This document shows, one piece after another, positions 20,860-43,427 of a DNA stretch of 64,000 nucleotides. Under the pieces are notes generated by a model. That model did no database searches and was not told the DNA's origin. It was given only the letters and a program-made list of their open reading frames with translations. The translations under genes were made by a program, and so were the position numbers. The DNA comes from Pseudomonas sp. CCI4.2 (GTDB lineage Bacteria > Pseudomonadota > Gammaproteobacteria > Pseudomonadales > Pseudomonadaceae), in contig NZ_CP133781.1 in NCBI RefSeq assembly GCF_034350045.1, positions 1,952,001 through 2,016,000 on the forward strand, given 5' to 3'. How positions within the stretch are numbered: the first letter of the stretch is position 1; every line of letters starts with the position of its first letter.

Positions 20860-20988
20860 TGCGGCCTCGCTTGGCGGGCATAAACACGGGAGTATACGGC
20901 TCCATGCCAGTACGCGGCAAAGCGTCGCGTATGTGCTGCTAACCGATGGGACTGGTAGAATCATTGCCGGTTCACATGAGGTTTCTCC

Positions 20989-23047: not shown

Positions 23048-23075
23048 GAATTTACGTAAGTAATTCGAGGTGCGT

Positions 23076-24296: not shown

Positions 24297-25803
24297 TAGT
24301 GCAGTCCTAGCCCGGTATGAGCGCACTTCGTTTTTATCAAAAGATGGCTATGAAGTGGAGGTTTACTCGAGTAAGTGGAGGCTGAGTAAAGATGTTAGAA
24401 TCCACTTTGGTACTCTTCCTGCATGGCTGGATGGCGATTTAAAACGCACATTTAAGCAGGTTTTGGCCATCTATGGAGAGACCTGCTCAGCGCAGTACAC
24501 GATATTACTTTACCACCGATTCAAATCTTATTTTGAGGCGACTCATAGTCTCCCACTATTCAGTCCAGAATCGATGATCTCCTACCGCTCACAAATAGCT
24601 GATACTGAGTGGGAGCTGAGCCCTATGCGTGCATTCATTCGCACATGGGTAAGTCTTGGATATCCTGGAGCCTCCGCTGATACCTTGAAAATGATGGAGG
24701 GCTGGAGGATCAAAGGGAGCGAAAAAGGCTACGCGGTACAGTCGATGTGTCCAGAAAATGGGCCGCTTACAGATATTGAGATGGAGGCTATCGTCTCAGG
24801 CGTGCTTGATTGTTATGCAATTGGAAAACTCGATTTGCGAGCAACTTGCTTCGCGATGATTTTGGCCATGACTGGCAGACGCCCAACTCAAATCGCAGCT
24901 TTGAAAATTAAAGACCTTATGTCTGTCGGGCAGCGTTATTTCATCAATTTTCCGCGTGGTAAGTAAAAGCACGAGGGGTGGCGCCAGTCGTTCTCTAAGT
25001 TTGAGGTTGTTGAAGACTTGTGGACGCTTCTTAATGAGCAGGCAGGCTATGTAAAATCAACTTTTTCTGATCTGTGCAGTTGGTCTAACCAGCAGAATCT
25101 TGTGCCCGAGTTGCCACTGTTTCCGGCAATCAAACACTACGACGTGAATAAAGACCTTGAGGCGCAACTGGCAGGAGATTTTTTGCATGCCCGGGGGAGT
25201 GAGATCGGTCACTCGATGTCGAGCGTTAAAGAAGTGATCGCCGTTACCAGTCACAGAACTGGCGCTTACACCAACATTAACCCATACCGCTTCCGCTATA
25301 CCCTCGGGACCAACCTCGCGAGGGAAGGCAGAGGGGAATACATCATCGCGCAAGCGCTTGATCACTCCGACATCCAAAATGCTGGCGTCTATGTGAGGAA
25401 CATTCCCGAGATCGTTGAACGCATCGATAAAGCTGTGGCGCTGCAATTGGCTCCACTTGCGCAAGCGTTCCAAGGCGTCCTTGTTGTTGATGAAACCAAG
25501 GCTCGCCGTGGTGGGGATCGTTCAAGCAGGATTTGCAGTGCAGGTGGCAACGTCGGTAGCTGCGGGAGCTATGGATTTTGTGGCGCTCTGGCCCCGGTCG
25601 CCTGTTATACCTGTTCTCATTTTCAGCCTTGGCTGGATGGACCTCATGAGGCTGTCTTAGATCAGCTAATTCTTGAGCGTGACGGCGTTTATGAAGGCAC
25701 TGGTGACCTGAAGATCGCATCCGTCAATGACCGACTCATTCTTGCAGTTAGTGATGTAGTAACTCGTTGCAATGCCATGAAGAGCGATCTCGCCAATGTC
25801 TAA
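24283..25803 (+). pseudogene. Tyrosine recombinase 2, interrupted by an in-frame TAA
   Basis: One frame of 507 codons is broken by a single TAA at 24964-24966 (codon 228); the coding sense continues in the same frame directly after it (KHEGWRQSFSKFEVVEDLW) to the stop at 25801-25803. The start is GTG with AGGAGG seven bases upstream. The first part holds the catalytic arginine region MTGRRPTQIAALKIKDL; the second holds NPYRFRYTLGTNLAREG and the tyrosine region IQNAGVYVRN. The stop therefore separates essential parts. A cysteine-rich segment follows near the C-terminus (CSAGGNVGSCGSYGFCG, then CYTCSH). It overlaps the next gene by eight bases. CAA to TAA is the simplest origin; sequencing error or readthrough cannot be ruled out. 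Confidence 0.85.
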
Positions 25804-27664
25804 CATCTTTCAGTTTATTCCGAAGGCCCAAGCTGCCAGCCTGCAGAACCTTGATGAGTTCATCGTCATGTGTCGGGACAGGCTTACAGTGTTTGGTGCC
25901 GATCTAGATTGGTACAGCCATGCTTGGCCAGGTGTAGGCAACGTCACAAAAAAGGGTGCTCCGTCTCGCGGCTATAGCGAAGCGCAACTTCTGGACGCAG
26001 GCATCATTCCATTCGCCAAGGCATACGTTCGTTATCAGCAAGGCCATAACCCTAACAAGCTGAAGAGTGAGTTCAAGGCCATTCGCTGCGTTGAAGCTGC
26101 TTTGCTTGAAATCAAAGGCTGTGCTGACATCACGCAGACCGATATCAGTGTCTTGGATGAAGCCGCCAAGGTAGCGTTTACTTACGGCGCAAGTTCATAT
26201 CAAGCGGGCATCAGCTTGGCGAAACTCGTTGAATTCCTGAATCAAAGCCGAATCATCCCAGCACCAATTTCCTGGAAGAACCCGGTTAAAAAACCTAAGG
26301 AGATTCATCGTACTGATTCCGTCGGCAAGCAACGGCGCGAGGACAAAATGCCTCCAGAGCGAACACTTGAGGCAATGGCGGAGATGTTCAGCAACGACCT
26401 TCAGGGAGCGCGAGATCGCTTCACTACATCAATCTTTGCGCTCTGCATGTGCGCTCCATCCCGCATTAGCGAAGTACAAGACCTTCCCCTTAACTGCCTG
26501 CACCGGGAGACCGACAGCAAAGGCGTAGAGCGTCTCGGGCTCAGGTTTTACGCTGGGAAGGGATATGAATCTGATATTAAATGGCTTCCTTCCGTTCTGA
26601 TGCAAACCGCTGAGGAAGCTGTTCGCCGTCTCACAGAAATGTCCGAGCCTGGGCGCAGGCTCGCGAAGTGGATTGAAAGCCATCCGGACAAGTTCTATCG
26701 CCATGAAAACTGCCCTAACATCGGTGAAGATCACCCTTTAAGTGACACCCAAGCCTGCCTTGCTCTGGGGTTAGATCCGAGTGACGTAGCGGCGGTAGCT
26801 ACCGTTAGGCTGAAAGCGGGAATGAAATCCTACAAACCATTTCCGGCCTTTTATGCAGAGAACGGGTACGTCACATTGCGGTTTTTGAACGGCTTCATGC
26901 ACAGCAAGCTGCCGAAGGGGTGGCCGTGGCTCAACAAAGAGCGGCACATCAAGTATTCGGAGGCGCTCTGCTGTTTCAGGCAAAACGAACTGAGGATGGA
27001 CTATCCCGCACGACCGATCATTGTCTGGTCTCCGGGGAAGAGTACGTTCACCACCGACATCAACTACATCGATGGCCAAGAGCGCAGCATCTGGGAACGG
27101 AATGGCTATAAAAACCCTGATGGAACCCCTATTTCTATGGGGTCTCATCAAGTTCGGCACTACCTGAATACGCTGGCTCAGCGCGGCAGCTTAGGCCAAT
27201 TGGACATTGCTAAATGGTCAGGGCGAGCCAACATCCACCAGAACGCTACCTACAACCACATGACAGCCGATGAGCACGTCGAGATGGCCAGGGAAGCGGG
27301 TATTGGTGTCGCGTTGACCAAGATCAGGGAGAACGCGCCAGTGACGTTGGCTGACCTTGACGCCACGGGGGAGGGAATTGCCCACATCACAATTTTCGGC
27401 TTCTGCGTGCATGACTATTCAATGCTTCCGTGTCAGAAGCACCGTGACTGCCTGAATTGCACTGAGCAAGTCTGCGTCAAGGGGGATGCCAACAAGCTCG
27501 AAAGACTCAAAAGTCATCGTGACAGTATCCGCCGTCAGCTTGGCAAGGCTCAGGCGGCGAACGAAGACGGTATCTACGGTGCCGACCGCTGGAGTCAGCA
27601 TCAGATCAAAACCTTGGAACGGGCTGATCAACTGATCGAGATTTTGGTCGAAGGACACTCCTGA
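25796..27664 (+). CDS. Tyrosine recombinase 3 of the island
   Basis: 622 residues to the first stop. The catalytic domain shows Arg223 (APSRISEVQDL), His451-x-x-Arg454 (SHQVRHYLNTLAQRG) and Tyr486 (NATYNHMTADEHV). After it comes a cysteine/histidine cluster (FCVHDYSMLPCQKHRDCLNC, then C), likely a zinc-binding element, and a helical tail. The ATG overlaps the end of recombinase 2 by eight bases. The reading frame ends at a TGA at 27662, but clear protein sequence continues in the +1 frame for 47 more codons, up to three bases before the next gene. The original product was therefore probably about 669 residues. It is comparable in size and position to Tn554 TnpB-like and GMT integrases. Confidence 0.87.
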   Translation: MSNIFQFIPKAQAASLQNLDEFIVMCRDRLTVFGADLDWYSHAWPGVGNVTKKGAPSRGYSEAQLLDAGIIPFAKAYVRYQQGHNPNKLKSEFKAIRCVEAALLEIKGCADITQTDISVLDEAAKVAFTYGASSYQAGISLAKLVEFLNQSRIIPAPISWKNPVKKPKEIHRTDSVGKQRREDKMPPERTLEAMAEMFSNDLQGARDRFTTSIFALCMCAPSRISEVQDLPLNCLHRETDSKGVERLGLRFYAGKGYESDIKWLPSVLMQTAEEAVRRLTEMSEPGRRLAKWIESHPDKFYRHENCPNIGEDHPLSDTQACLALGLDPSDVAAVATVRLKAGMKSYKPFPAFYAENGYVTLRFLNGFMHSKLPKGWPWLNKERHIKYSEALCCFRQNELRMDYPARPIIVWSPGKSTFTTDINYIDGQERSIWERNGYKNPDGTPISMGSHQVRHYLNTLAQRGSLGQLDIAKWSGRANIHQNATYNHMTADEHVEMAREAGIGVALTKIRENAPVTLADLDATGEGIAHITIFGFCVHDYSMLPCQKHRDCLNCTEQVCVKGDANKLERLKSHRDSIRRQLGKAQAANEDGIYGADRWSQHQIKTLERADQLIEILVEGHS

Positions 27665-28672: not shown

Positions 28673-29416
28673 TCAGTCCGTTAGTGGTGCTTTCGCCTCC
28701 CATGTGCTCAAAAGGTATAGTGCTAGCGATCCGGCTAAATTAACCGCCAATTCCGCATGTCTTGGAGCTGGTTTGACGCCTGCCTTTCCTGTGCCATGAG
28801 AATCGCTGAGTCGATTTCGAAGAGCGCCCAGTCCTTCTACTACTGATGTGCATCCACCAAGAATCTGTTTAAAGACCTTCTCCGTGTGTTGAGAGGGAGC
28901 AAGGTTGAGCTGTTCAGCTGTTTGGCGATACAGCTTGTTAAGGTCCGGAGTCTCTTCATATTTGGCACCTGCTTCCTCTAAGATGTGCTTGCAGACAGAT
29001 TCGAGAAGGGTTCGCGCCATTGTGATTGCACCTTCTGGGTCAGTCGTGCGCCTCTCCAGCGATTTCGTCCAAGCTGTCCTTACATTCTCTGAGTCGAATC
29101 TCTCAATTGCACCAGTGACCACATCGTCTGCAGGTGAAAAATTACCTTTTTCAACGTAGTCCAGCAACGGACGGAACTGGTCCCAGAGATAAGCTCTGCG
29201 TTCCGCATATGTGCCGTACTTATTCTTTATATATTGCCAAAACTGACTGAGGCTGCGGCATGTGTTGACGAACCGAGGTAGCATCGTTGCAAGCGTAGGG
29301 TCATCAAGGAGGGCGCGTCTAAGCATCAGGTACGCCGTATCGTCCTCTTTACCGCCTGTAGCCTGCGAGACCAGAATGTTTTGGAGCGATTCTGCTTCTT
29401 CTGATAGTGGATGCAT
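28673..29416 (-). CDS. Abortive-infection family protein (AbiJ/AbiC C-terminal domain)
   Basis: 247 residues. The C-terminal half (from about residue 105) matches the abortive-infection C-terminus pattern: a helical segment EGAITMARTLLESVCKHILE, then LNLAPSQHTEKVFKQILGG and LGALRNRLSDSHGTGKAGVK, and a final helix. Proteins with this domain are found in phage-exclusion loci; the mechanism is unknown. The ATG at 29416 lacks a clear ribosome binding site, so the start is uncertain. The gene faces back toward the recombinase module and lies 247 bases from the CHAT gene on the same strand. Confidence 0.8.
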   Translation of the reverse strand: MHPLSEEAESLQNILVSQATGGKEDDTAYLMLRRALLDDPTLATMLPRFVNTCRSLSQFWQYIKNKYGTYAERRAYLWDQFRPLLDYVEKGNFSPADDVVTGAIERFDSENVRTAWTKSLERRTTDPEGAITMARTLLESVCKHILEEAGAKYEETPDLNKLYRQTAEQLNLAPSQHTEKVFKQILGGCTSVVEGLGALRNRLSDSHGTGKAGVKPAPRHAELAVNLAGSLALYLLSTWEAKAPLTD

Positions 29417-29663
29417 GGCGATGCTCTGTTCGACGGGGCGTGATATATCGCCATACTAATGCCATGACCCCGTGGGATCCAATCACTTCGAGTCCCGGCT
29501 GAGGCTTGACGGCTTCAGCTATGGCCGGTCGCCTTAGTGTAATTAGTCGTCGCGTAAATACAATCCATAAAGAAGTTAGATAGCCTTGTGATTAGTCGTC
29601 GAAATTTGCTTGGGAAAATATTCTCAATATGAAGAGTCAGGTTTTTCTCGCTTTTTCATTTGG

Positions 29664-31790
29664 TTATTGAGTGGTATGTGTTTTTTTATCAGTCAATATT
29701 ATTAAGGTTTCTGGTCGGCCAAGCTGGCAGTAGTTCATCGTCTCCATCATTGGATGGTTATTTTTTATTTGGTCGATAAAGTGGCTAGGGGGTAGTGATG
29801 TCAGTTTGGCTAGCTTTTCAAGAATATTTTCGTGCCAGTCCGGGTTTAGTGAGTTTATGTCCTCACTTGCCTGAATATGAATTTCATTATATTGTATATC
29901 ATTAATCAGCGCTAAGTCGTCTCTGAAGTAATGGAGCATGTCTGTCGTATAGGACATTTTCAAAAACGTACTAATCATGCTTCGCCAGGAAATTGCATTA
30001 AAGTCTAGTACCTTTAAGACTGGCAGGAAACTGTCTATCCTAAACAAAATCCTTGCCATAAATATTGCGGACGGCGTCGCTTCTACTGGTAAAAATGTTC
30101 CAATAACACTAAGTGCGCCGGATCGAAGTAGCCCATTTGCTACAGATGCATGAGAGCCGCTTATTGGGCTAGTCAGGCATGCACTGAGCATAACTATAGG
30201 CGGGATTCTTGCCTTCTCATATAAGTCCCATGTATTCAACTTCTCCTCCCCAATTGCAAGCCAACTAATACCCTCAGGACCGTCATGGTCGCCATGGCAG
30301 TCAAAAATCACAATCGCACCATTGTAGCTATTCAATGCAGATATGGTTTCTTCGATTGTTTCGACGTCAATTATTTTTACGGAGAGGCCATGCTTGAAAG
30401 GGAAAGTCTCGGTTGCTACTTGAAGATAATTTTTAATTGGGTCGCTTGGTCGGAATGAGCGTATTACTAATACATTTAGTAGGGAGTCTTTGTGGATATA
30501 TTTTTTCTGCCCTGCGAAGCTGAGTTGCATTAGCATATTGCCCGGTGTCGTTGGTATTTTCGATACTTCATGACTAATCATCAGCGGAAGTTTGTCGAAG
30601 TATAGCCATTCTATTGGGACATCGCTTAGTATTTTGCAAGCGCCGCTTTTCGTATTGATGTGATTGATCAGTTTTTCGTCTATGTCGCCGATTAAGCCCT
30701 CAGTTATTTTTCTAAAGGCTTGCTGAAATTTTTGGCTTGAATTAGGGTTCTCTTTTTTCGAAAGCTGTTCAATTTCCTTGAGCTGTTTAGATCTCAGATT
30801 TACACTATTAGGTAGCCGAGCTGCGGGTAAAAACTCACTGGTGGCTATGAAGGCTGCACAAAGATTCGTTATAAAAAGCTCTTTTTGTCGGGAAGCTATT
30901 ATTAAACCAGCCATCGGGTCATGATATGGATTGTTTTTGTCAGCCCCTTCAACGGATATTCCAGAATATTGGCGGTTTTTGAATATTCCATTTTTTATTA
31001 GTTCTCGGTGCCACTTTAATTTTACCTTTCGTAAGATTTGATTCCAGTAAATGCTGCTCATATCTTGGTATTTTGTAAACACAGATGGTGCGTACAACAC
31101 GATTTCTTGGCGGCCGTCATATGCTTGGGTATTTATGATACTGAATATTGAGTCCGCATTTTCCAGCATTGCGTCTATATAAGAGTCTGGGTCGGATGCG
31201 ACCAAGGTTTCTGACTCTGTGAACTCGAAGCCCAGTGCGTGGTGTGTTAGTTCTCCAGCTACTGTGACACCGGAAGAGCGAATAGGAAAAGGAGCTTTGA
31301 GGTTGTAAGTGCTTCTAGTTTCTTTGGATGGGTGTTGACCTGTTTTGTGTAAGTGAATCGATATGTATTGATCGAGTACTTGGGATAAAGGTGTGGTTTG
31401 GTTTTGAAGGTTTATAACGTCATAGGTATCATGATCGATGAGGCTTACAATGAGTGGAGGATGTTTAAATTTTCTACAGGTTCGTATGACGGAATCTAAA
31501 TCTACCGGGCGACAAAAGAAAATACAAAAGCACTCGCTATGTGTATCAGGAACGGAATCTATATGCGAGGCGCTTATGGGAGTCGCATTCTTGAAAGAAG
31601 ATTCGCGCCTTGACTCAAGTAGTTGTTCATATGTATAGAAAATTTCAAATGGAGTATTTGGTGCGCAGCACAGGGCATGAAATAAGAGTATCGATTCTGC
31701 TTCTGCTAACCCAGGGTGGAACCCCTGAAAGGTAGTGAATTTTTCTTCCGTGAGGGCAGGGATTACAAAAAAATAGTGAATTTCATCCAT
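29664..31790 (-). CDS. CHAT-domain (caspase-like) protease protein, candidate defence effector
   Basis: 708 residues, encoded in DNA that is visibly AT-rich compared with the flanks, a sign of transfer. The first 400 residues are not recognised. The region of about residues 440-620 looks like a CHAT peptidase: a hydrophobic strand leads into DCHGDHDG with His499, and MLSACLTSP carries Cys538, the expected catalytic dyad; SVANGLLRSGALSVIGTFLP follows as in the family. CHAT proteases act as effectors in some bacterial defence systems, for example type III-E CRISPR (TPR-CHAT) and gasdermin loci. No TPR repeats or membrane segments were seen. The partner or substrate is unknown. Two interleaved inverted repeats lie directly upstream of the start. 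Confidence 0.75.
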   Translation of the reverse strand: MDEIHYFFVIPALTEEKFTTFQGFHPGLAEAESILLFHALCCAPNTPFEIFYTYEQLLESRRESSFKNATPISASHIDSVPDTHSECFCIFFCRPVDLDSVIRTCRKFKHPPLIVSLIDHDTYDVINLQNQTTPLSQVLDQYISIHLHKTGQHPSKETRSTYNLKAPFPIRSSGVTVAGELTHHALGFEFTESETLVASDPDSYIDAMLENADSIFSIINTQAYDGRQEIVLYAPSVFTKYQDMSSIYWNQILRKVKLKWHRELIKNGIFKNRQYSGISVEGADKNNPYHDPMAGLIIASRQKELFITNLCAAFIATSEFLPAARLPNSVNLRSKQLKEIEQLSKKENPNSSQKFQQAFRKITEGLIGDIDEKLINHINTKSGACKILSDVPIEWLYFDKLPLMISHEVSKIPTTPGNMLMQLSFAGQKKYIHKDSLLNVLVIRSFRPSDPIKNYLQVATETFPFKHGLSVKIIDVETIEETISALNSYNGAIVIFDCHGDHDGPEGISWLAIGEEKLNTWDLYEKARIPPIVMLSACLTSPISGSHASVANGLLRSGALSVIGTFLPVEATPSAIFMARILFRIDSFLPVLKVLDFNAISWRSMISTFLKMSYTTDMLHYFRDDLALINDIQYNEIHIQASEDINSLNPDWHENILEKLAKLTSLPPSHFIDQIKNNHPMMETMNYCQLGRPETLIILTDKKTHTTQ

Positions 31791-32111
31791 GATGGCTCCG
31801 CTAAGCGTGTTGATCCAGCCATCAAAGCTTAGCTGGGCTAATGTCTATATGCTATTACTCGCTCATAAGGAGAACCAAACAACCAGTTCAATGTAGCTGC
31901 TGTCTATGGGCACAATGCCATCATTCAGATACCATTCGCATCAATCGGGATACAGGGACAAGCCTACGGGACTTATCTGAGTCTGAAGCTAGCACTGACA
32001 GCGTTTATTAAAAGCCAGCAGGAGCTGTGGCTGAGACGAGCTGGTTGCCAAGGAGGCACTATTCCCTAGGCGCCGCTCCATGGGCTGCAGGTCGGCAACA
32101 GGGAAGCCATT
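31791..32111. other. Divergent intergenic region with interleaved inverted repeats
   Basis: This 321-base region separates the CHAT gene (-) from the helicase operon (+). GATGGCT (31791-31797) is inverted at 31817-31823, and GCTAAGC (31800-31806) is inverted at 31827-31833; the two dyads interlock. No coding sequence or clear sigma-70 promoter was recognised. A ribosome binding site AGGGAAG lies just before the helicase ATG. Confidence 0.5.
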
Positions 32112-35100
32112 ATGCAAATCGTCGTTCGGGGCAATGGGTTGCACAAGAGCGAGACAAACGCTCTGGATCAGATGCAAAAGCACCTGCGTGAGAGCTGGTT
32201 CGGTTACGCATCGGTATTGGTTGCGGATAAGCAGGGGTCGATGGAGTTCGACCTCATTGTCGTGACGCATGACCGCGTGCTCGTGGTCGAACTCAAAGAA
32301 TGGCACGGCAAGCTGACCAACTATGATGGCAACTGGATCATTACCACCCCGCGTGGCGAGCAGAACAGGGGCAAAAGTGCCTATCACCGCAAGCGAGACC
32401 AGGGGTATCGTCTGGCGGCCATTCTCAAAAAAGAAATAGGACACAAGCTGTCCTACGACCCCTACGTCGAAGCGCACGTGGTGCTCTGTGGTAGCGCGAC
32501 GCCTGAGCACCTGCCTGAAGGGGAGCGCAAGTATGTTCACACCCTTGAAGACTTTCTGAAGATCGCGGGCAAAGGCTATGAGAGCCTCGTTCAGCAAGTG
32601 CGAATGATCAAGTTCGACGAAATGGGCAGGCTAAGACCCAACAAAGCCCAGCCCATTTTCGACAGCTTCTTTCGGGGTAACCGTGTAGAACTTGCTGAAT
32701 TCCAATATCTAGAATACACCGCTGCTCATGCCCCAGACCGCGTGCATGATCAGCATCTGTTCAGTGAGTATCCCGCCACCAACGTCGGCCCTCCTATTGG
32801 CAAGGCCATGATGCGTCGCTGGGATTTGGCAGCTTTGGGGTTGGCATTTCACGATGACGAGACTTGGCGCCGTGTGGTGACGCGAGAAGACTTTGTCTTT
32901 CGTACCGCCAGCGCTGCGAACAGCCCGCTAGAAGATTTTCTTCTCAGGCCTTTGTCCCCGATGGTTGAGGACAACATCACTAGTGACTGCGTCGAACTAT
33001 TCGAGATTCGCAAGAACACCCTGCGTCTTGAGCAGCACCTGAATCTGCATGGCCACAAATGGTCGGTTGATGATCGTCTTGACCTGACCAAGGCCCTATT
33101 GGCGCCCTTTGCCGAAATGCACAGCATGGGTTTTGCACACCGGGACATCGACACGCAGAACCTTTGGTACTCTCAGGATTCGCGCATCGTCTTGGCCTCC
33201 AGTTTCCACGCAGCCTTCGTCCCTGACAAAGGCACGGTCAAGGATCTGGCCGAACGTCTAAAAAGCAACACGACTCTCCTTCCAGAAGATGTTTATGCCT
33301 CACAGGGTGATGTACTCAGCCCGTTTGCCAAAGACGTCTACCTGCTGGCCCTGGTCGCCCACAAGATTTGTTTTCACTGCGCCAAGTTTGTCCTAGAAGA
33401 AGGTATTTGCGTATGGCGCTCGGTGGCCAGTGACCCCTTCGATGGCAAACTGGACGCATTCTTCGCCAAGGCAATGGATCTAGAGCAGAAGAACCGCTTT
33501 GCCAATGCTTCTGAAATGCTCGCTGAATTTAACACCCTGGCGATCGGCAAACCGCTGCAATATGACGACACCCAGGAGGTCATGCAGGAGATTGCCAAGG
33601 GCGATTTCGTCAAGGCCGATTGGAACCCCTACATGCTGATGAGCTACTTCCCGCCAGCGCCAGGGATCGTTCCTATCGGCACTGCAGAGAAAATGGTTTA
33701 TCGGTGTGTGTTCGACTCTGAAGAGGCGCTATTCAAGTTCTGGCCGAAGGCCGTGGTCGACCTGAAGAATCCTGGCACCAACCGCCGTATCCTGCGCATG
33801 AGAAAGCGCATTGAGCAGTCCCTTGAGGACGAATTGCCACTGCCAGCGCTGCTGACCCATGGCATGTTTGCAGGCGGCAACGGACTGTTTGTCGTCACGC
33901 GCTTCGAGCAGGGCACTGGCTGGCCTGAATTTGTTACGACCCTGGACAAGCTTGAGCAAAAGCTGGAGGCCGCTTCGGCACTCTGCAATCTGCTGATCAA
34001 CGTGCACGGCCTAGATTTTGCGCACGGGGATCTGCACCCAGACAACATTCTGGTTCGTCCAAGCGATGAGGGTGACCCTCTTTCGCTGATGTTCATTGAC
34101 GCACTCGATTTTGGCGACACCTCTGATCCCTACAATGTCGAATATGGCCCGGCAAACCCGGCCAGCACCGACAGCTTTGGTCGCGACTGCTATGCGCTCT
34201 ACAAGATCGTAGGCGAGCTCCTAGGAGCTGAAGCCCCTACATCTCTGGTCGCCGAGTTAGCTTTGGCTAAAGAGCAGCCGAACGGGATTCCCGTTGCCAT
34301 CGATCCACTGAATGAGACCCTCAAGGCAGAGCTCGAAGCTCTTCGAAAGCCTATCGCACCTGAATTACCTGCGCTGAAATTTGTCGCTGACGTCTTCCGG
34401 TGGCCCACAGAAGAGACATTACTTCAGGGCAGAGAGTCTGCGTATTACCTGCAGGTCGAGCGCGCTGACCGCAATCCAGAGCAGCTATACATCAGGCTGA
34501 CCGCGCTGGACAGGCGTCTGGCATTCAATTTTGATCCCGTGCACCAGACGCTGTCTTCGCCTTGGCTCTCCGATGTGTCGTTCAGCGATTACATTTCGGC
34601 AGGGCACAAAGCTCAGGCTACCTTCATCCAACCCATCACCGTTCAGAAAGGTATTTCAACCAAGGCTACTGATGAGGCGTTCGTACACTTTCTGCTGAGC
34701 CAAGAGCCCGTGCAGAGCTTCCTGAAGAAACCCGAGTCGGTATCAGGTGAAGAGGAGGGCTGTGAAGACAGTGATGAGTTCGCCGATCAGAGCATCAGGC
34801 CATCGGCAATCTGGAAGGCAATGCTGGAAACCGAAGGTGACCAGCTGATGCGCGTCGAAATCGAGAATGCCGCCTTTGAAGAGAGCGCTAGTGGAGCACT
34901 ACTCATTCCCTATGTGCCGCAAAATGGCCAGGATCTAGACTTCAACGAAGATGCCGGTGACATCGGCATCTTCCTGGAGGGCGAGAACCGCCCGTTTGGT
35001 GAGGTGGTGGCCGAAGAGTGCAGTTCAACACGAATGGCTGTGCGTATTTTTTCTGCCGGCATTCGCAGCGTCAAACAGAAGCTGACTCCGGGCACGGAGC

Positions 35101-37070
35101 TTATTTTTGAGTCCAAACTCAACAACGCCTCTCGCGAGCGCCGCAAGAAAGCCATGGAGCGCGTGCTCAACGGAGTGTCCCGAATTGCTCACCTCCCTGT
35201 CTACTTCGATCAAGCCGGGGCCCTGCAGTCCAAGGTGACTGGCAAGATCCCGGATGAAGTTGCTATCCGAGAGCGCTATGACTCGGATAAGGGGCAACTC
35301 AATCCACGCCAAGTCATAGCTTTCCAGCGGGTAATCTCCGAAGGGCCGATCGGTGTATTGCAGGGGCCGCCTGGCACGGGGAAAACCGCCTTCGTCACCA
35401 AGCTGATCCACTACCTGTTTGAAAATGAGCTGGCGGGTAACATCCTGCTGGTGGGGCAATCACATGCCTCGGTGGACACGGTCGCGCTCAAGGCTCGCGA
35501 ACTGTGCTCAGAGCTCGGCACAGACATCAGCGTCATTCGCCTGGGCCACGAATCGGCCATTGACGATCAGATGCTCCAGTGCCATTCCAGTTCAATTCAG
35601 CGCCAGATCCGCTTCAAGTTTCAACGTGAGTACGAAAAGCGGATCAATGCCCTGGCTTCCCGGCTCATGCTCAGCCAAGATCTGGTCGAAGAACTGGCCA
35701 AGCTGCACCGCAGCATCAGTCCGCTTCTCGATCGTATGCGCACGTACACCAAGCAGAGGGACGATATCGCTTCCAAGCGCCAAATTAGCGAAGAAATCCG
35801 AAGCGAAAGGGTGATCGACTATGACAACAAGATCAAAAGCTGTGTCGAGTCACTGCAGCATCACATGGACAGCCGGGGCTATGAATTCACCCTGCCCTCG
35901 CCCACCGCGCCCGAGTTCTGGCGCGAGTTGTCCAACCAGGTGGCGCGCCAGCACGGTGTGACCAATCAGCTGGCCCTGCAGCGCCTGAACAACCTGATCA
36001 GCATCAGCCAGGACTGGATCGATGTTTTGGGCTCGGGAGCGGCCAACTACGACAAGTTTCTGGTCAAGACCTCCCAACTGGTGTGCGGCACCCTGGTAGG
36101 CATTGGAGCGGGAGCCTTGCACATCGAAGAGATGGAGTTCGACTGGGTCATCGTCGACGAGGCAGGCCGTGCGCAAGCTTCGGAGCTCATGATTGCCATG
36201 CAGTGCGGGCGCCGCGTTTTGCTGGTGGGTGACCACAAGCAGTTGGCCCCCATGTACGAGAAAAAACACGTGCGCGCAGTGGCCAGGAACCTGCAGATTG
36301 ATGAGCGTGAAGTGGTGAAGACCGACTTCGAGCGCGCCTTTACGGTGAACAATGGCATTACCCTCGACACTCAGTACCGAATGATTGAGCCGATTGGAAA
36401 CATTGTCAGCCACTGCTTCTATAACGACGAGCTGCACAGCTACCGCAAGAAAGCGGATTCGTGGTGCGATGAACTTCCGTATCCGTTCAACAAACCTGTC
36501 AGCTGGATCGACAGTGGTTCGGGAGACCGCGCGGTCAATGAGGATGAGCCCCAGAAGGGTAAATTCGTCAACAAGCATGAGGTTGCGATTTGCTTGCACT
36601 TGCTGCGTCAGCTCGCAAGACCCGAACACATGGAAAAGCTGAATGCCAAACGTACGCCGATGAACCCTCAACCCATAGGGCTGATCACCATGTACCGAGG
36701 TCAAAAGCGCTTGATCGAGGAAGAGTTGAGTCGTGCTGAGTGGGCGGCACCGCTTAGAGATGCAGTCAGAATCGATACGGTTGACTCGTACCAAGGCAGC
36801 GAAAACACGTTATTAATTCTTAGCTTGGTGAGGAACAATGACAAAGGCCTCCAAGGCTTTCTTGTTGATCAATCGCGAATCAATGTTGCCTTGTCCCGGG
36901 CCAAAGATCGCTTAGTCATCATCGGTTCCAAGAAAATGTGGAGCGGGGTGAATACACCAACTGCACTAGGGAGTGTGGTCAGTTATGTGACCGAGCAACA
37001 TGCCAAGTCACCTGACGATTACGAAATCGTAGATGGCACCACTGTGATCGAGGGTCAGCGCCATGAGTGA
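32112..37070 (+). CDS. NERD / kinase-like / kinase-like / SF1 helicase fusion protein, candidate defence factor
   Basis: 1652 residues. Domains in order: (1) a NERD-type nuclease fold, residues about 1-190, with Asp47 and Glu60-x-Lys62 (EFDLIV and VVELKEWHG); (2) a protein-kinase-like fold, about 250-475, with His343-Arg344-Asp345 but ASSF where DFG should be, so probably inactive; (3) a second kinase-like fold, about 520-720, with HGDLHPDN (638-645) and FIDALDFGD, which looks intact; (4) a linker; (5) an SF1 helicase of the DNA2/UPF1 type with GPPGTGKT (1085-1092), DEAG (1349-1352), GDHKQLAP, QYRM and SYQGSE plus NVALSRAKDRLVI motifs. The stop overlaps the next start by eight bases. NERD-plus-kinase proteins occur in defence (PglW of BREX type 2); this exact architecture was not matched to a named system. 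Confidence 0.85.
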   Translation: MQIVVRGNGLHKSETNALDQMQKHLRESWFGYASVLVADKQGSMEFDLIVVTHDRVLVVELKEWHGKLTNYDGNWIITTPRGEQNRGKSAYHRKRDQGYRLAAILKKEIGHKLSYDPYVEAHVVLCGSATPEHLPEGERKYVHTLEDFLKIAGKGYESLVQQVRMIKFDEMGRLRPNKAQPIFDSFFRGNRVELAEFQYLEYTAAHAPDRVHDQHLFSEYPATNVGPPIGKAMMRRWDLAALGLAFHDDETWRRVVTREDFVFRTASAANSPLEDFLLRPLSPMVEDNITSDCVELFEIRKNTLRLEQHLNLHGHKWSVDDRLDLTKALLAPFAEMHSMGFAHRDIDTQNLWYSQDSRIVLASSFHAAFVPDKGTVKDLAERLKSNTTLLPEDVYASQGDVLSPFAKDVYLLALVAHKICFHCAKFVLEEGICVWRSVASDPFDGKLDAFFAKAMDLEQKNRFANASEMLAEFNTLAIGKPLQYDDTQEVMQEIAKGDFVKADWNPYMLMSYFPPAPGIVPIGTAEKMVYRCVFDSEEALFKFWPKAVVDLKNPGTNRRILRMRKRIEQSLEDELPLPALLTHGMFAGGNGLFVVTRFEQGTGWPEFVTTLDKLEQKLEAASALCNLLINVHGLDFAHGDLHPDNILVRPSDEGDPLSLMFIDALDFGDTSDPYNVEYGPANPASTDSFGRDCYALYKIVGELLGAEAPTSLVAELALAKEQPNGIPVAIDPLNETLKAELEALRKPIAPELPALKFVADVFRWPTEETLLQGRESAYYLQVERADRNPEQLYIRLTALDRRLAFNFDPVHQTLSSPWLSDVSFSDYISAGHKAQATFIQPITVQKGISTKATDEAFVHFLLSQEPVQSFLKKPESVSGEEEGCEDSDEFADQSIRPSAIWKAMLETEGDQLMRVEIENAAFEESASGALLIPYVPQNGQDLDFNEDAGDIGIFLEGENRPFGEVVAEECSSTRMAVRIFSAGIRSVKQKLTPGTELIFESKLNNASRERRKKAMERVLNGVSRIAHLPVYFDQAGALQSKVTGKIPDEVAIRERYDSDKGQLNPRQVIAFQRVISEGPIGVLQGPPGTGKTAFVTKLIHYLFENELAGNILLVGQSHASVDTVALKARELCSELGTDISVIRLGHESAIDDQMLQCHSSSIQRQIRFKFQREYEKRINALASRLMLSQDLVEELAKLHRSISPLLDRMRTYTKQRDDIASKRQISEEIRSERVIDYDNKIKSCVESLQHHMDSRGYEFTLPSPTAPEFWRELSNQVARQHGVTNQLALQRLNNLISISQDWIDVLGSGAANYDKFLVKTSQLVCGTLVGIGAGALHIEEMEFDWVIVDEAGRAQASELMIAMQCGRRVLLVGDHKQLAPMYEKKHVRAVARNLQIDEREVVKTDFERAFTVNNGITLDTQYRMIEPIGNIVSHCFYNDELHSYRKKADSWCDELPYPFNKPVSWIDSGSGDRAVNEDEPQKGKFVNKHEVAICLHLLRQLARPEHMEKLNAKRTPMNPQPIGLITMYRGQKRLIEEELSRAEWAAPLRDAVRIDTVDSYQGSENTLLILSLVRNNDKGLQGFLVDQSRINVALSRAKDRLVIIGSKKMWSGVNTPTALGSVVSYVTEQHAKSPDDYEIVDGTTVIEGQRHE

Positions 37071-38619
37071 AGAATACCAAGCTGTTGATGCCTCAGGCTT
37101 TCGCATTTGCAACACAATCTCCCTGCTTTTGCCTGCATACCAGTATCAAATAAGCTGCTCATGGACGAAGGAAGTCTCCTTGCCTGCGGTAGAGGAGTTC
37201 ACGTGTCGTCTGCTGTTGGCCTTGCACGAAGTGCTGCCTGGAGAGATTCGTGAGTATTTCGGCTTGTCCAAGCGCGAATGCGAGGTATTGATCGAAACTC
37301 TCATCCGAAACAAGCTGGCCGTCTATACGAATGACGGACATTTGACGCCTTCAGCGATGCTCACAGATCGCACCAAGGGAAGCACATCGGCCAGTCCGAG
37401 TCTCACCAAGTATGAAGAGCGGATCGAGCGCCCGATTTTTGAGTTGCTGACCAAGACCATAATGCCGGCCAGTCAGAACAATCGCACTCGCTGGGGGCTG
37501 CCGCAAATTCCGGTGCCGGCGGAAAATAAAGCTTGGTCCGTTCAGGCTGTGGCAGATGCTTTCGGCGACCAGTATCGCGCTTTTCTGGATTTCTCCAAGC
37601 TGCCCGAGTCCGAAGCTCGGAAGACCAGGCTCTATAAGGTCGGTGCATGCGATCAGGCGGCTCCAGTGAACATTCAGGTGGATCTGGAGATCGGTCTGCT
37701 GCCAACCCAGGCGGGCAATGTCGAAGTCATCAAGCGCGTTGCCGAGAAAGTTGGCGGCACTCGCCAGCGCCCCTTAAGTATGGAGCTCGAAGCCAAGATT
37801 TCCGACTATCTTAATAGCCTACGGATGCCTAAGGGCGGCATGACTCTCCAAGCCTATTGTGAGGAGTTCGGGGATGAAGTGTTGACCCGTTATCTAGATG
37901 ACCGAGGTCTGGATATCAACACGTGGCTGATCGATCATAAGGAACGTAGGACGGGCTACGGCAGCCAAGCCACTAGGGCTATGATCGGGCCGATTTACGA
38001 GAACAACAACCGGATTGCTTTGGGGCGGATGCTCGAAGACCTCTCTCGGGACTGGCCAGAGGGTCAGGTTCACTCGGCATTGTGGCTGTCGAGCTCTGTG
38101 CCTCTGTGGGCAGCCAACGGGACATTGATCAGCGACTTCTGCCGCAGGACCGCTGAGAAGCTCAGTGAGGCGCCTCACGTCAAAGGTCGAATTACCGCTA
38201 TCGTCCCATTCGATGAAAAAAGGGAGTTCGGCCAGCTGCGCAGCACGTATCACAATCGGATTCCTAACGGAATTGCTTTCGAAGGAGCGGATCTTCAGGA
38301 CCGGTTCGAGATCTTCCTGGTCCCTGGGCAGTTGGCCGTGGTGCAGTACCACTTTCAGCCCAGTGACGAGAGCGCGGCGACGGTCCCGATTGGTTACATC
38401 ACCTGTGATCCGCAGCGTGTTGCCCACATTGACGGCTTCCTAAATTCCCGACTGGTCGGGAGAGGTGAGGGCCATGTGGTGTGGAGTGAGGATTCTGAGC
38501 GAGACATCGCTAATCATATGGAAAAGGATCGCCTGGAGCTAATCCAGTCCAGTGGGTCCGGACTTCCGATGTCTAGCCAAGTTAAGCTCACAATCAAGAA
38601 GCCGCCTAGAAAATTCTAG
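37063..38619 (+). CDS. Helicase partner protein with probable N-terminal winged helix
   Basis: 518 residues, not recognised as a named family. Residues about 45-105 (LLLALHEVLPGEIREYFGLS and the following ECEVLIETLIRNKLAV) fit a winged helix. The middle is helical. The last 200 residues alternate short strands and helices (ALWLSSSVPLWAANGTLISD; ITAIVPFDEK; EIFLVPGQLAVVQYHF), a layout vaguely like a phospholipase-D-type fold, but no HxK motif was found. Its ATG lies inside the end of the helicase gene (ATGAGTGA), so the two products are probably made in a fixed ratio and work together. No membrane segment or signal peptide. Confidence 0.75.
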   Translation: MSEEYQAVDASGFRICNTISLLLPAYQYQISCSWTKEVSLPAVEEFTCRLLLALHEVLPGEIREYFGLSKRECEVLIETLIRNKLAVYTNDGHLTPSAMLTDRTKGSTSASPSLTKYEERIERPIFELLTKTIMPASQNNRTRWGLPQIPVPAENKAWSVQAVADAFGDQYRAFLDFSKLPESEARKTRLYKVGACDQAAPVNIQVDLEIGLLPTQAGNVEVIKRVAEKVGGTRQRPLSMELEAKISDYLNSLRMPKGGMTLQAYCEEFGDEVLTRYLDDRGLDINTWLIDHKERRTGYGSQATRAMIGPIYENNNRIALGRMLEDLSRDWPEGQVHSALWLSSSVPLWAANGTLISDFCRRTAEKLSEAPHVKGRITAIVPFDEKREFGQLRSTYHNRIPNGIAFEGADLQDRFEIFLVPGQLAVVQYHFQPSDESAATVPIGYITCDPQRVAHIDGFLNSRLVGRGEGHVVWSEDSERDIANHMEKDRLELIQSSGSGLPMSSQVKLTIKKPPRKF

Positions 38620-39020
38620 TGGGTTATAACGGGCTGCTTTAGAATTTTTACAGTTCTAGTATGTTCAGCTCAACGGGGCGTTGTGTGCACGCGGCGCCTC
38701 GGTCGAGGCGCCATACATATATGCTCCATTCAATTTTAGGCTGGTGGAGGCGGATGCTACAAACGTGACTCCAGGCCTTCAATGGAAATCGTTTGGCACT
38801 CTATGTTCTGAGGCTCGTACCGTTGGTCTGAATTTAAGCGAAGTTCAGACAAGCAGCTTGAGAAATACACTTATCGATTTTGTAAAGTTTCCTAAGCCTT
38901 GCACGGCATAAATTTACGAAAAACCTTACACTGATAAGGTTCCGGTGTAGTGATGATCCGTCCAATACCCAATAAGATATGAGCTTAAGCCCACTCAGTC
39001 GTTCGTCTTGCTGACTGTCT
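38620..39020. other. Non-coding end of the island
   Basis: No supported gene. A perfect hairpin GGCGCCTC-GGTC-GAGGCGCC lies at 38693-38712 without a T run. A 76-codon frame (38681-38911) starting at GTG has no ribosome binding site and no recognised match; it may be a gene remnant. The right copy of the 13-base direct repeat lies here. Confidence 0.5.
38879..38891. repeat. Right copy of the 13-base direct repeat, possible attachment site
   Basis: TTTGTAAAGTTTC, identical to 22950-22962 and in the same orientation. It is located beyond the last island gene. Confidence 0.4.
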
Positions 39021-39046
39021 GGTACTCATAACCGTTCTAGAGTACC
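39021..39046 (+). other. Hairpin upstream of a terminator, possible small RNA
   Basis: GGTACTC (39021-39027) and GAGTACC (39040-39046) form a perfect seven-base-pair stem. Twenty bases later comes a good intrinsic terminator. No open frame crosses the pair. This could be the 3' part of a small RNA or the end of an island transcript. Confidence 0.35.
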
Positions 39047-39386: not shown

Positions 39387-42300
39387 ATGAATACTTCGAC
39401 TTTGCTGGAGCCTGATCAGAGCGTCTGTTTATCAGACGTGCTGTATGGCGCGATTCGCCCTGAGTTATTGCGTGAGGAGGTACTTGCCGATTTGCTCGAA
39501 GCCAGTGCGCTGCGCAGTCCGGGGCAGATTGCTTTGATTTTTGGGGATCGGCAGCTCAGCTATCGCGAGTTGGATCGGCAGGCGGATCAGGTGGCGTCGG
39601 GTTTGATCAATGCGGGCGTGTTGCCGGGGCAGATTGTCGGGTTGTGGCTGCCACGCGGTATCGAATTGTTGGTGATGCAAGCGGGTATCGCTAAGGCGGG
39701 AGCGGCGTGGTTGCCGCTGGATCAGGACACGCCGGTTGACCGCTTGCACATCTGGATGGACGACGCGGGGGCGGTGGGCGTTGTGTGTTGTGAGGCGTTG
39801 GCGTCGAGCTTGTCCGGCATTGGTCTGCCGCTGTGGACTGCCGAGGCGTTGTTGAGTCCAGGGGAGGGTGCGTTGTTGCGTCGGCACGGCGCGTTGCCGG
39901 AGCATCCTGCTTATGTGATCTACACCTCGGGTTCTACCGGGAAGCCCAAAGGCATCGTGATTTCCCAGCGCAGCATTTGCCACTTTTTGCGCAGTGAAAA
40001 CGCGGTGCTTGGCATCCGCGCGGCGGACCGGGTGTATCAAGGTTTCTCTGTAGCGTTTGACATGTCGTTCGAAGAAATCTGGATCGCCTATCTGGTGGGC
40101 GCGACGCTGTGGATCGGCCCCAAAGAAACCAGCGGCGACCCGGAAACCTTGCCACGCATGCTGACCGAGCAGCGCATCAGCGTGTTGCACGCCGTCCCGA
40201 CTTTGCTGGCGTTGTTCAGCGAAGACGTGCCGAGCCTGCGCCTGATCAACCTCGGCGGCGAGATGTGCCCCGAGTCGTTGGTAGAGCGCTGGAGCCGGGC
40301 CGGTCGGCAGATGTTCAACACCTATGGACCCACCGAAGCGACAGTCTCGGCCAGCCTTGCGCGGCTGTCGCCTGGGCAGCCGGTCACCATCGGAACGCCA
40401 TTGCCCAATTATGGTTTGTTGGTGATTGCCCCCGATGTGGTGGCCGGCCTCCCGTTAATCCTGTTGCCTCGTGGTCAGACCGGCGAGCTGTGCATCATCG
40501 GCCCCGGCTTGGCCGACGGTTACCTCGGGCGGCCGGACCTGACCGTGGAAAAATTCCTGCCCAATCCATGGGCCACGGGTTACCACGATGAGTGCCTTTA
40601 CCGCACCGGTGACTTGGCGCGAATAGACGTCGACGGCCAGGTGCAGTGCCTGGGTCGGGCCGATGATCAAGTAAAAATTCGCGGTTTCCGGGTTGAGCTG
40701 GGTGAAATCGAATCCCTGCTGGCGCAGCAGCCCGGCGTCGGCACGGTGGCGGTTTTGCTGCGCAACGAAGACGGTATCGACCAACTGATTGCCTATCTGG
40801 TCGCGGACACTGTATTGCCGCCCCAAACCTTGGCCGCTCAGTTGCGTAAAACCCTGCAAGCGTCTTTACCGGCCTACATGGTACCGGGGCGGTTCGAGCT
40901 GCTGGACAGCATGCCGCGCCTGACCTCTGGGAAGATTGACCGTAAAACGCTCAAGTCCCGACCAATCAGCATTGATACCAGCAGCGCCAGTCTTGAGTCC
41001 GACGTGGCTGAGAGCGCGGCCGAGCAGTTTCTGTTTGCAGCTTTGGGAGCACTCTTCCCCAGCCAGCCAATCCGCCGCGATGCTGACTTTTTCACAGATC
41101 TGGGCGGCCACTCGTTCTTCGCCGCCCGGCTGGCCTCAGCCTTGCGCGCCGATGCACGGTTTGCCCACATCACCGTGCGCGACATTTATCATCAGCGTCG
41201 CGTCGGTGCCATCGCCGCCGTATTGGAGCAAACCCCTGAGCAAGGCCCGGCCCACGTGACGTGGACGCCGCCTTCAGCTTTTCGTCGTTGGCGCTGTGGC
41301 GCGGCTCAGGCACTGGCATTACCGGCGCTGGTCTGCCTACGAATGATCCAATGGCTGGCGCCGTTTTTTGCGTACGACTTTCTTACCAGCAATTCGGGCG
41401 ACTCCGCAGCTTTCGCCACCGTCGCCTCGGTGGCGGTATTCCTAGCGGCTACCGTGTTGCAATTCGGCGTCGCGATCATTGGTAAATGGTTGATTGCGGG
41501 CCGGCTGAAACCGGGCAGTTACCCGTTGTGGGGCGTGACCTATTACCGCTGGTGGGCTGCCGACCGTCTGGTCGAGTCGGCGCCGGTGTACCTGTTGAGT
41601 GGCTCATCGCTTTACCCCCTCTGGTTGCGTGCGCTCGGTGCCAAAATCGGCAGCGAGGTCATCATTGGTTCGATGAACGTGCGGGCTCCAGAGCTGTTGG
41701 TCATCGGTAACGAGGTTAGCGTCGGCAACGGGGTCAGCTTCGAAAACGCCCGTGTTGAACGCGGAGAGTTGCACTTGGGCGCCATCACCGTGGGCGACAA
41801 CGCCTGCGTCAGTTCTTATGTGGTGATGGAAGGCGGCACTGCCGTCGGCGAACTCGGCCATTTAGAGGCTCAATCAGCCCTGGCTCAGGGTTGCAAGGTA
41901 CCGGCTGGCCGGGTCTGGAAAGGTTCGCCAGCACGGGATGTCGGCGCGTTCGATGCTCGATCCCAGCGACCAAGGCCTGACGTCACGCAGCAACGTCGTC
42001 TCGGGGAGACGCTGTTTTTCGTGTTTGGCATCCTCCTTGTCGCCCTGCTGTTTTTCATCCCGGTGTTTCCGACCTTTGTGCTGATCGACTGGCTTGACGT
42101 GCAGAGCGTTATGCCTTGGCTGCAAGGTGACTCCGTTGTCGTGCAACTGGCGCGCTATTTCGTCTTGGCGTTCCCGGCCAGTGCCGTACTGATTGTGCTG
42201 ACTGCATTGTTATCGGCGGCCCTGCGCTGGATCGCGCTGCCGCGCCTGAAACCTGGCAGCTACCCGGTTCACAGCACGACCTACTGTGCCAAATGGTTGG

Positions 42301-43427
42301 TCAGTCATATTCAAGAATCGAGCTTGAACGTGTTGTCCGGCATTTACGCCACGGTTTATGCGCCGTTCTGGTTTCGTCTGCTAGGCGCCAAGGTCGGCCG
42401 CGACGCCGAGATTTCCACCGCCCAAGGGGTTATCCCGGACATGCTGACGCTGGGCGATGAAACCTTCATTGCCGACGCCGTTATGCTCGGCGACGAGCAG
42501 ATCGACGGTGGCTGGATGACCATGCGCCCAACGGTGATCTCCCACCGTAGCTTCGTCGGCAATGGCAGCTACATTCCAGACGGCACCGTGTTGCCGGAGA
42601 ACGTCTTGATCGGCGTTCATTCCCACGCGCCACTCAACTCACAACTGTCGGACGGCGACACGTGGCTCGGTTCGCCGCCAATCAATCTGCCGGCGCGGGA
42701 AAAGGTCATCGGCAGCTACCCCGAGTCCCTGACCTTTCGCCCATCGCCCCTGCGGCGGTTAGCACGGGGATCGATTGAAGCGGTGCGCATCGTTGTACCT
42801 CACGCGTTGGTGGTCGCGGTCGGTTACACCGTGATGCTCGATTTGATGCCGCTGGCCAAAGACGGTCGCTGGGCGGCAGTGATCGGCTACCTCGCCCTTA
42901 TTGGACTGGCGTATGGCGTCGGCAATTACCTGTTTGTCGTGGCATTGAAATGGCTGCTGATGGGCCGTTATCGCAAGCGCGCCGAACCAATGTGGACCCC
43001 GTTTGTGTGGGTGTCCGAAAGCATCACCAGTGTCTACGAAAGCATGGCGGCGCCGAACTTCATGCGTTACCTGAGGGGCACGCCGTGGTTGCCTTTGGCG
43101 TTCAATCTGCTGGGCTGCAAGATTGGCCCAGGGGTGTACATGGACACTACAGACATCACCGAATTCGATTGCGTCTCCATTGGCGATGACAGCGAGTTGA
43201 ACGCAGGTGTGTGCCCCCAAACCCACCTGTTCGAAGACCGAATAATGAAAATCGATCACGTGGTTATCGGCAAGCGAGTCTACATGGGGCCACGCAGCGC
43301 CGTGCTGTACAGCGCGCAAGTGGGTGACGACGCACGCCTTGGTCCGCTGACGTTGGTAATGAAAGGCGAACACATTCCGGCCACCAGCAGTTGGACCGGT
43401 TGTCCGGCGGCACCGGCCCGAGCATGA
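39387..43427 (+). CDS. Pls/PosA-type single-module membrane peptide synthetase
   Basis: 1346 residues. An adenylation domain (about 35-530) carries the core motifs YTSGSTGKPKGI, FNTYGPTEATV, YRTGDLARI, GRADDQVKIRGFRVELGEIE and LTSGKIDRKTL. A carrier domain follows with the phosphopantetheine serine at 576 (DLGGHSFF). The C-terminal half alternates pairs of membrane segments (near 640-700, 870-960, 1130-1190) with three left-handed beta-helix-like soluble domains (KIGSEVIIGSMNV, KVGRDAEISTAQG, KIGPGVYMDTTD). This is the layout of epsilon-poly-lysine synthetase Pls, which joins one kind of amino acid into a homopolymer at the inner membrane. The Asp-Met-Ser-Phe-Glu sequence in motif A4 has an acidic residue that could favour a basic amino acid substrate; that is inference. 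It overlaps the transferase gene (ATGA). Confidence 0.9.
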   Translation: MNTSTLLEPDQSVCLSDVLYGAIRPELLREEVLADLLEASALRSPGQIALIFGDRQLSYRELDRQADQVASGLINAGVLPGQIVGLWLPRGIELLVMQAGIAKAGAAWLPLDQDTPVDRLHIWMDDAGAVGVVCCEALASSLSGIGLPLWTAEALLSPGEGALLRRHGALPEHPAYVIYTSGSTGKPKGIVISQRSICHFLRSENAVLGIRAADRVYQGFSVAFDMSFEEIWIAYLVGATLWIGPKETSGDPETLPRMLTEQRISVLHAVPTLLALFSEDVPSLRLINLGGEMCPESLVERWSRAGRQMFNTYGPTEATVSASLARLSPGQPVTIGTPLPNYGLLVIAPDVVAGLPLILLPRGQTGELCIIGPGLADGYLGRPDLTVEKFLPNPWATGYHDECLYRTGDLARIDVDGQVQCLGRADDQVKIRGFRVELGEIESLLAQQPGVGTVAVLLRNEDGIDQLIAYLVADTVLPPQTLAAQLRKTLQASLPAYMVPGRFELLDSMPRLTSGKIDRKTLKSRPISIDTSSASLESDVAESAAEQFLFAALGALFPSQPIRRDADFFTDLGGHSFFAARLASALRADARFAHITVRDIYHQRRVGAIAAVLEQTPEQGPAHVTWTPPSAFRRWRCGAAQALALPALVCLRMIQWLAPFFAYDFLTSNSGDSAAFATVASVAVFLAATVLQFGVAIIGKWLIAGRLKPGSYPLWGVTYYRWWAADRLVESAPVYLLSGSSLYPLWLRALGAKIGSEVIIGSMNVRAPELLVIGNEVSVGNGVSFENARVERGELHLGAITVGDNACVSSYVVMEGGTAVGELGHLEAQSALAQGCKVPAGRVWKGSPARDVGAFDARSQRPRPDVTQQRRLGETLFFVFGILLVALLFFIPVFPTFVLIDWLDVQSVMPWLQGDSVVVQLARYFVLAFPASAVLIVLTALLSAALRWIALPRLKPGSYPVHSTTYCAKWLVSHIQESSLNVLSGIYATVYAPFWFRLLGAKVGRDAEISTAQGVIPDMLTLGDETFIADAVMLGDEQIDGGWMTMRPTVISHRSFVGNGSYIPDGTVLPENVLIGVHSHAPLNSQLSDGDTWLGSPPINLPAREKVIGSYPESLTFRPSPLRRLARGSIEAVRIVVPHALVVAVGYTVMLDLMPLAKDGRWAAVIGYLALIGLAYGVGNYLFVVALKWLLMGRYRKRAEPMWTPFVWVSESITSVYESMAAPNFMRYLRGTPWLPLAFNLLGCKIGPGVYMDTTDITEFDCVSIGDDSELNAGVCPQTHLFEDRIMKIDHVVIGKRVYMGPRSAVLYSAQVGDDARLGPLTLVMKGEHIPATSSWTGCPAAPARA

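Follow-up and report, generated by a model that had tools for sequence, protein, structure and literature searches.

A NERD-Bearing mkoA-mkoB Gene Pair of Pseudomonas sp. CCI4.2 Very Probably Represents One of Two Forms of Mokosh Type I

Introduction

Does a two-gene operon of Pseudomonas sp. CCI4.2, in which a protein of 1652 residues is followed by a smaller partner, represent an undescribed defence system or a member of a named one, and which of the two proteins would cut nucleic acid? The DNA stretch that was analysed, here called the window, comprises 64,000 nucleotides (positions 1952001-2016000) of a single-contig 5.57-Mb genome. An earlier note, made from the letters of this DNA, had proposed a self-contained, undescribed defence module. 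The bacterial anti-phage system Mokosh type I has been described as a COG1112 RNA helicase to which an STK domain is added, together with a separate second gene (PMC11672841), to which a PLD nuclease is assigned (PMC11672841; PMC10952713), and NERD (PF08378) appears under Mokosh type I in a review table (PMC10952713).

Domain Architecture of MkoA and MkoB

The two genes and the sequence features that are relevant for their assignment are as follows:

32112-37070, plus strand: mkoA, 1652 aa, ATG start, assigned by PADLOC, Pfam and conservation; domains are NERD (about 12-125), pseudokinase (about 230-480), kinase (about 510-700), a linker and an SF1 Upf1-like helicase (about 1060-1610)
32145-32486, plus strand: NERD, mkoA residues 12-125 with Asp47, Glu60 and Lys62; Pfam PF08378 at 46.1 bits, invariant in 14 sequences
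33135-33236, plus strand: first kinase, residues 342-375, HRD catalytic loop present and DFG Asp gone in a 19-sequence alignment
34023-34103, plus strand: second kinase, residues 638-664, HGDLHPDN and the DFG-position Asp663 present in the alignment
35364-35387, plus strand: helicase Walker A motif GPPGTGKT, residues 1085-1092, read from the sequence and invariant in 14 sequences
37063-38619, plus strand: mkoB, 518 aa, ATG start, HTH-like N-terminus and a C-terminal domain without HKD motif, assigned by PADLOC and alignment

The open reading frame, Pfam, profile comparison and alignment agree on a single protein in which NERD is followed by a degenerate kinase, a kinase that looks intact and a complete SF1 helicase. 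This is the architecture that the earlier note had read, with the Walker A motif at the very residues where it had been placed and with the end of mkoA overlapping the start of the second gene, by 8 bp. The NERD match exceeds the Pfam cut-off of 22.1 bits, and the helicase is covered by AAA_11 (1062-1382) and AAA_12 (1405-1608) with E values of about 1e-42. The kinases are weak in Pfam, where Pkinase (306-359) stays below the cut-off; a profile of 14 MkoA sequences matched solved kinases in two separate stretches, e.g., residues 264-477 in 9ymt and 543-635 in PknB, and for the helicase gave Upf1/NAM7 and Sen1 as the best solved matches.

All 14 MkoA proteins share Asp47, Glu60, Lys62, HRD343-345, HGD638-640, Asn645, Asp663 and G1085-T1092, and Lys542 of the second kinase is nearly invariant among them. 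In an alignment of 19 MkoA sequences, D-(12)-ExK of NERD is conserved wherever the region exists, whereby one sequence has DxK, and one, whose locus has an in-frame stop, lacks the region. The first kinase carries HRD in 18 of the 19 and the DFG Asp in none, the latter being replaced by SSF, SNF or SGF; the second kinase retains HGD, Asn645 and Asp663, and nearly always Lys542. The order of a degenerate kinase before a functional-looking one, as suggested previously, is thus borne out. Locus L025 has an in-frame TAG in mkoA, and most of the NERD region is missing from its long open frame, with kinases and helicase present, which possibly represents a natural NERD loss.

For the window MkoB, neither Pfam nor the PDB sequences of solved structures gave a match. 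The partner had been called a winged-helix protein; its place as second gene of the unit stands, while the winged helix itself is hinted at by a few relatives that match MarR_2, HTH_Crp_2 or wHTH-PRTase_assc with E values of 0.006-0.008. Within the C-terminal domain of MkoB (residues 300-450), Gly309, Trp341, Trp349, Glu416, His430, Pro442 and Gly444 are invariant in the alignment. AlphaFold2 models of MkoB and of residues 1-1060 of MkoA, for which five 73-98% identical sequences served as input, had a mean pLDDT of 33.

Assignment to Mokosh Type I

A search with the PADLOC models, which the earlier note had named among its checks, assigned both genes to a named system. Residues 1-1643 of MkoA matched PDLC03921 (model positions 1-1601 of 1607) with 1280.6 bits, and residues 12-467 of MkoB matched PDLC03923 with 258 bits; the latter model was also matched by all 14 aligned MkoB proteins. 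Full-length MkoA, adjoining MkoB, a COG1112-type SF1 helicase, a Ser/Thr kinase and NERD are all present. The published PLD of the second gene is the one type I trait for which the window MkoB and its relatives yielded neither an HKD motif nor a PLD profile match, with the curated MkoB model still being matched. Because of both model matches and the published domain descriptions, the pair almost certainly belongs to Mokosh type I. The claim of an undescribed system had to be given up, since the Mokosh type I models cover both proteins nearly end to end, a match to a named system being what the earlier note itself had said would count against it. Compared to the NERD-type Mokosh type I that is defined by PDLC03921 and PDLC03923, the window pair has the same full-length proteins, gene order and overlap and differs by ordinary divergence alone, e.g., 87.6% identity of MkoB to plasmid copies. 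Thus, the pair is a further Mokosh type I copy and no new system. Overall, it is best explained as mkoA and mkoB of that form of Mokosh type I whose MkoA includes a NERD nuclease cassette, and we regard this as very probable.

The N-terminal cassette of NERD, inactive kinase and active kinase has been described for PglW of BREX type 2 and for DndF (PMC12839542; PMC10853773), in line with the link between NERD and a kinase in PglW that had been pointed out before. It shares the identical domain order with MkoA, and the NERD-kinase part of MkoA matches PglW (65.5 bits) and MAD6 of MADS (90.6 bits over residues 3-479), which would be expected if the gene were a misplaced BREX type 2 or Dnd component. 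However, the PglW model matches residues 11-357 alone, the C-terminal half of MkoA is an SF1 helicase instead of a wHTH and inactive STAND or a P-loop kinase, and no pglX, pglZ, brxC, brxD or dnd genes were found among the neighbours scanned, so that a PglW or DndF origin has a negligible probability. Likewise, the MAD6 model of 612 residues lacks the helicase half, and the family cut-off, at 460 bits, is far above the score of its match.

NERD and PLD Forms of Mokosh Type I

The sampled type I Mokosh loci split into two forms, a NERD form and a PLD form, whereby the PLD-form sample consists of 13 loci, mostly from alphaproteobacterial plasmids, and exceptions to the split may exist. In the NERD form, to which the window belongs, MkoA contains NERD with Asp47, Glu60 and Lys62, and MkoB has no HKD motif or PLD match. 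In the PLD form, a PLD profile found 12 of 12 MkoB proteins (E 1e-18 to 4e-9), each with two HKD motifs except for a single truncated copy with one, whereas the best E value for NERD in the 13 MkoA proteins was 0.6. The two PLD-form loci that were scanned matched PDLC03920 and PDLC03922 and contained Pfam PLDc_2. The kinase of this form has HRS, HRN, HRA or HGS instead of HRD in all eight loci with the loop read (L120, L121, L123, L124, L126, L127, L131, and L132); in these eight, a dead kinase thus appears to accompany an intact PLD nuclease.

Profile comparison revealed that the entire PLD-form MkoA aligns to residues 512-1652 of the window MkoA (E 3.8e-63, 982 columns); therefore, the extra part of the window MkoA corresponds to NERD and the first kinase. 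Between the MkoB groups, similarity is confined to the N-terminal 120 columns (E 1.1e-5) and ends thereafter. The PLD form thereby resembles the window pair in the kinase-linker-helicase core of MkoA and in the N-terminal part of MkoB, but differs in lacking NERD and the first kinase, in the degenerate kinase where the loop was read, and in the two HKD motifs of MkoB.

In a helicase tree each form constitutes one group (99/99 and 100/100), with other COG1112 helicases between them. This position could be taken to mean that the window pair is an unrelated, undescribed NERD-kinase-helicase defence system which is Mokosh-like in its helicase alone, since no MkoB was found beside the intervening helicases. 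Against this, the MkoA model covers residues 1-1643, the MkoB model is matched in all 14 relatives, and the 982 aligned columns of the PLD form include kinase and linker and not the helicase alone, which makes an unrelated system very improbable and leaves Mokosh type I as the assignment. As possible Mokosh variants, the COG1112 helicases of L019-L021 and of L028-L030 were rejected, as no MkoB was found beside them, although L028/L139 is truncated by the contig end. In one intact locus that was read, an HxK motif was absent from MkoC, and this copy may be atypical.

PADLOC already has separate models for the two groups, and hence the split is implicit in existing tools. An exchange of effectors between type I forms is stated in no paper found in the literature searched. 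With other COG1112 helicases lying between the forms, the tree does not establish that an exchange took place directly in a single lineage.

Which Protein Carries the Nuclease

The simplest reading of the sequence comparison would be a swap of the nuclease between the forms, with NERD as the likely cutter in the window form, and canonical PLD appears to be restricted to the PLD form. More specifically, Mokosh type I might comprise two systems with exchanged effectors: a NERD branch with an imported NERD-pseudokinase module and a non-PLD MkoB that acts as sensor or adaptor, and a branch with a two-HKD PLD and a dead kinase. We give this version about an even chance. Either the published PLD description refers to the form with HKD motifs, or the window-form MkoB has a divergent PLD that escaped detection.

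The latter leads to a different assignment within Mokosh type I, in which MkoB is the nuclease by means of a strongly diverged PLD or another undetected nuclease fold, with Glu416 and His430 as candidate residues and NERD as backup or regulatory domain. It would agree with the publications that ascribe PLD to the partner gene of the helicase in type I (PMC11672841; PMC10952713), with the invariance of these two polar residues and with a co-linear hhalign path between the MkoB C-terminus and the PLD profile, which is not significant (P 0.048). However, the HKD motif occurs in 0 of 22 NERD-form MkoB proteins (several of them near-identical). The PLD profile, which was made from ordinary PLD enzymes and detects the 12 PLD-form MkoB proteins without exception, gave no match better than E 0.3 in 17 of the NERD form. 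Furthermore, the similarity between the MkoB groups does not extend into the C-terminal part. A nuclease function of MkoB is therefore unlikely in our view, and NERD is preferred as the candidate effector.

What seems mildly new here is that, in the window branch, the part that cuts nucleic acid would belong to the first protein and not to the second. The split into NERD-bearing and HKD-bearing loci yields a direct, mutable prediction of which domain is the effector.

Proposed Mechanism

Mokosh is said to degrade viral transcripts (PMC11291487), and its mechanism is listed as unknown elsewhere (PMC12926258). The idea of the earlier note, that the helicase senses, a kinase sets the state and NERD cuts, is a reasonable hypothesis given the domains present. 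In an extended scheme, MkoA and MkoB would form one complex, in which the Upf1-like 5'-3' helicase together with MkoB might recognise phage-derived RNA or single-stranded nucleic acid; this type of target is suggested because of the helicase family. The active kinase, controlled by the pseudokinase, could then switch the state of the complex, whereupon NERD, not MkoB, would cut nucleic acid and thereby stop the phage or the cell. Cutting by NERD is favoured a little because the window-form MkoB has no HKD motif. As a whole, the scheme is tentative, and we hold its chances to be somewhat below even.

Distribution and Genomic Context

Of the 299 genomes sampled from the genus, 11 contain full-length MkoA, with the window's genome included in this count (14 passed the MkoA threshold, three of them by the helicase alone); a phylum sample of 398 genomes added another five. 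In the NERD-form loci examined, MkoB lies directly downstream of MkoA, overlapping or abutting, and both genes remain linked in an overlapping operon throughout Gammaproteobacteria and on plasmids. MkoB occurs at 80-90% identity on 25 plasmid records; among the 20 plasmid matches listed, 19 are from P. aeruginosa and one from P. putida, all at 87.6% to the window MkoB. Viral contigs yielded distant helicases alone and no MkoB.

The surroundings of the operon in the window contain the following features:

23070-25803, plus strand: two genes that match tyrosine recombinases (408 and 261 aa), situated right after ssb, a core gene
28673-29416, minus strand: AbiJ-like protein of 247 aa with Abi_C C-terminal domain (Pfam PF14355, 79.5 bits; PADLOC PDLC02347, 79.4 bits)
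29664-31790, minus strand: bovA of Borvo with CHAT domain (PADLOC PDLC03831, 659.7 bits)
31929-38715, plus strand: Mokosh block in common with locus L007 (blastn 94.2%)

The Mokosh locus sits in a defence island, as follows from its Borvo and AbiJ-like neighbours, from the variable stretch after ssb, and from CBASS and TIR genes near the plasmid Mokosh copy of a relative. The variable stretch of about 32 kb extends from 22.9 to 55.4 kb, because in a related genome (G020) ssb is followed within about 90 bases by sequence that matches the window from 55420 on. The defence role and the two-gene unit that had been proposed earlier are in accordance with these neighbours, with the matched Mokosh models and with the position of MkoB beside MkoA in the loci examined. 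A PADLOC mad3 match at 18016-20994 is UvrA and was discarded as a defence gene.

Locus L002 shares Borvo and Mokosh with the window as a single block (window 29544-39038, blastn 93.8%), L007 shares Mokosh alone, without Borvo, and L005 aligns over 31929-38632 (blastn 78.4%). From these alignments, 31929-38715 is probably a transfer unit of the Mokosh module. Pseudomonas sp. Ant30-3 harbours two Mokosh type I copies on different contigs (L002 and L007), with MkoA identities of 96% and 97% to that of the window.

Together with a 227-aa ORF between the recombinase matches and a 622-aa ORF after them, both without Pfam match, the recombinase genes make up a row (23070-27664, plus strand) that resembles a recombinase element of several genes, placed where the variable region borders on ssb. 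Beyond the defence genes, 39387-43427 (plus strand) encodes a protein of 1346 aa with an AMP-binding adenylation domain and hexapeptide-repeat stretches, which was found in one of 37 other genomes searched.
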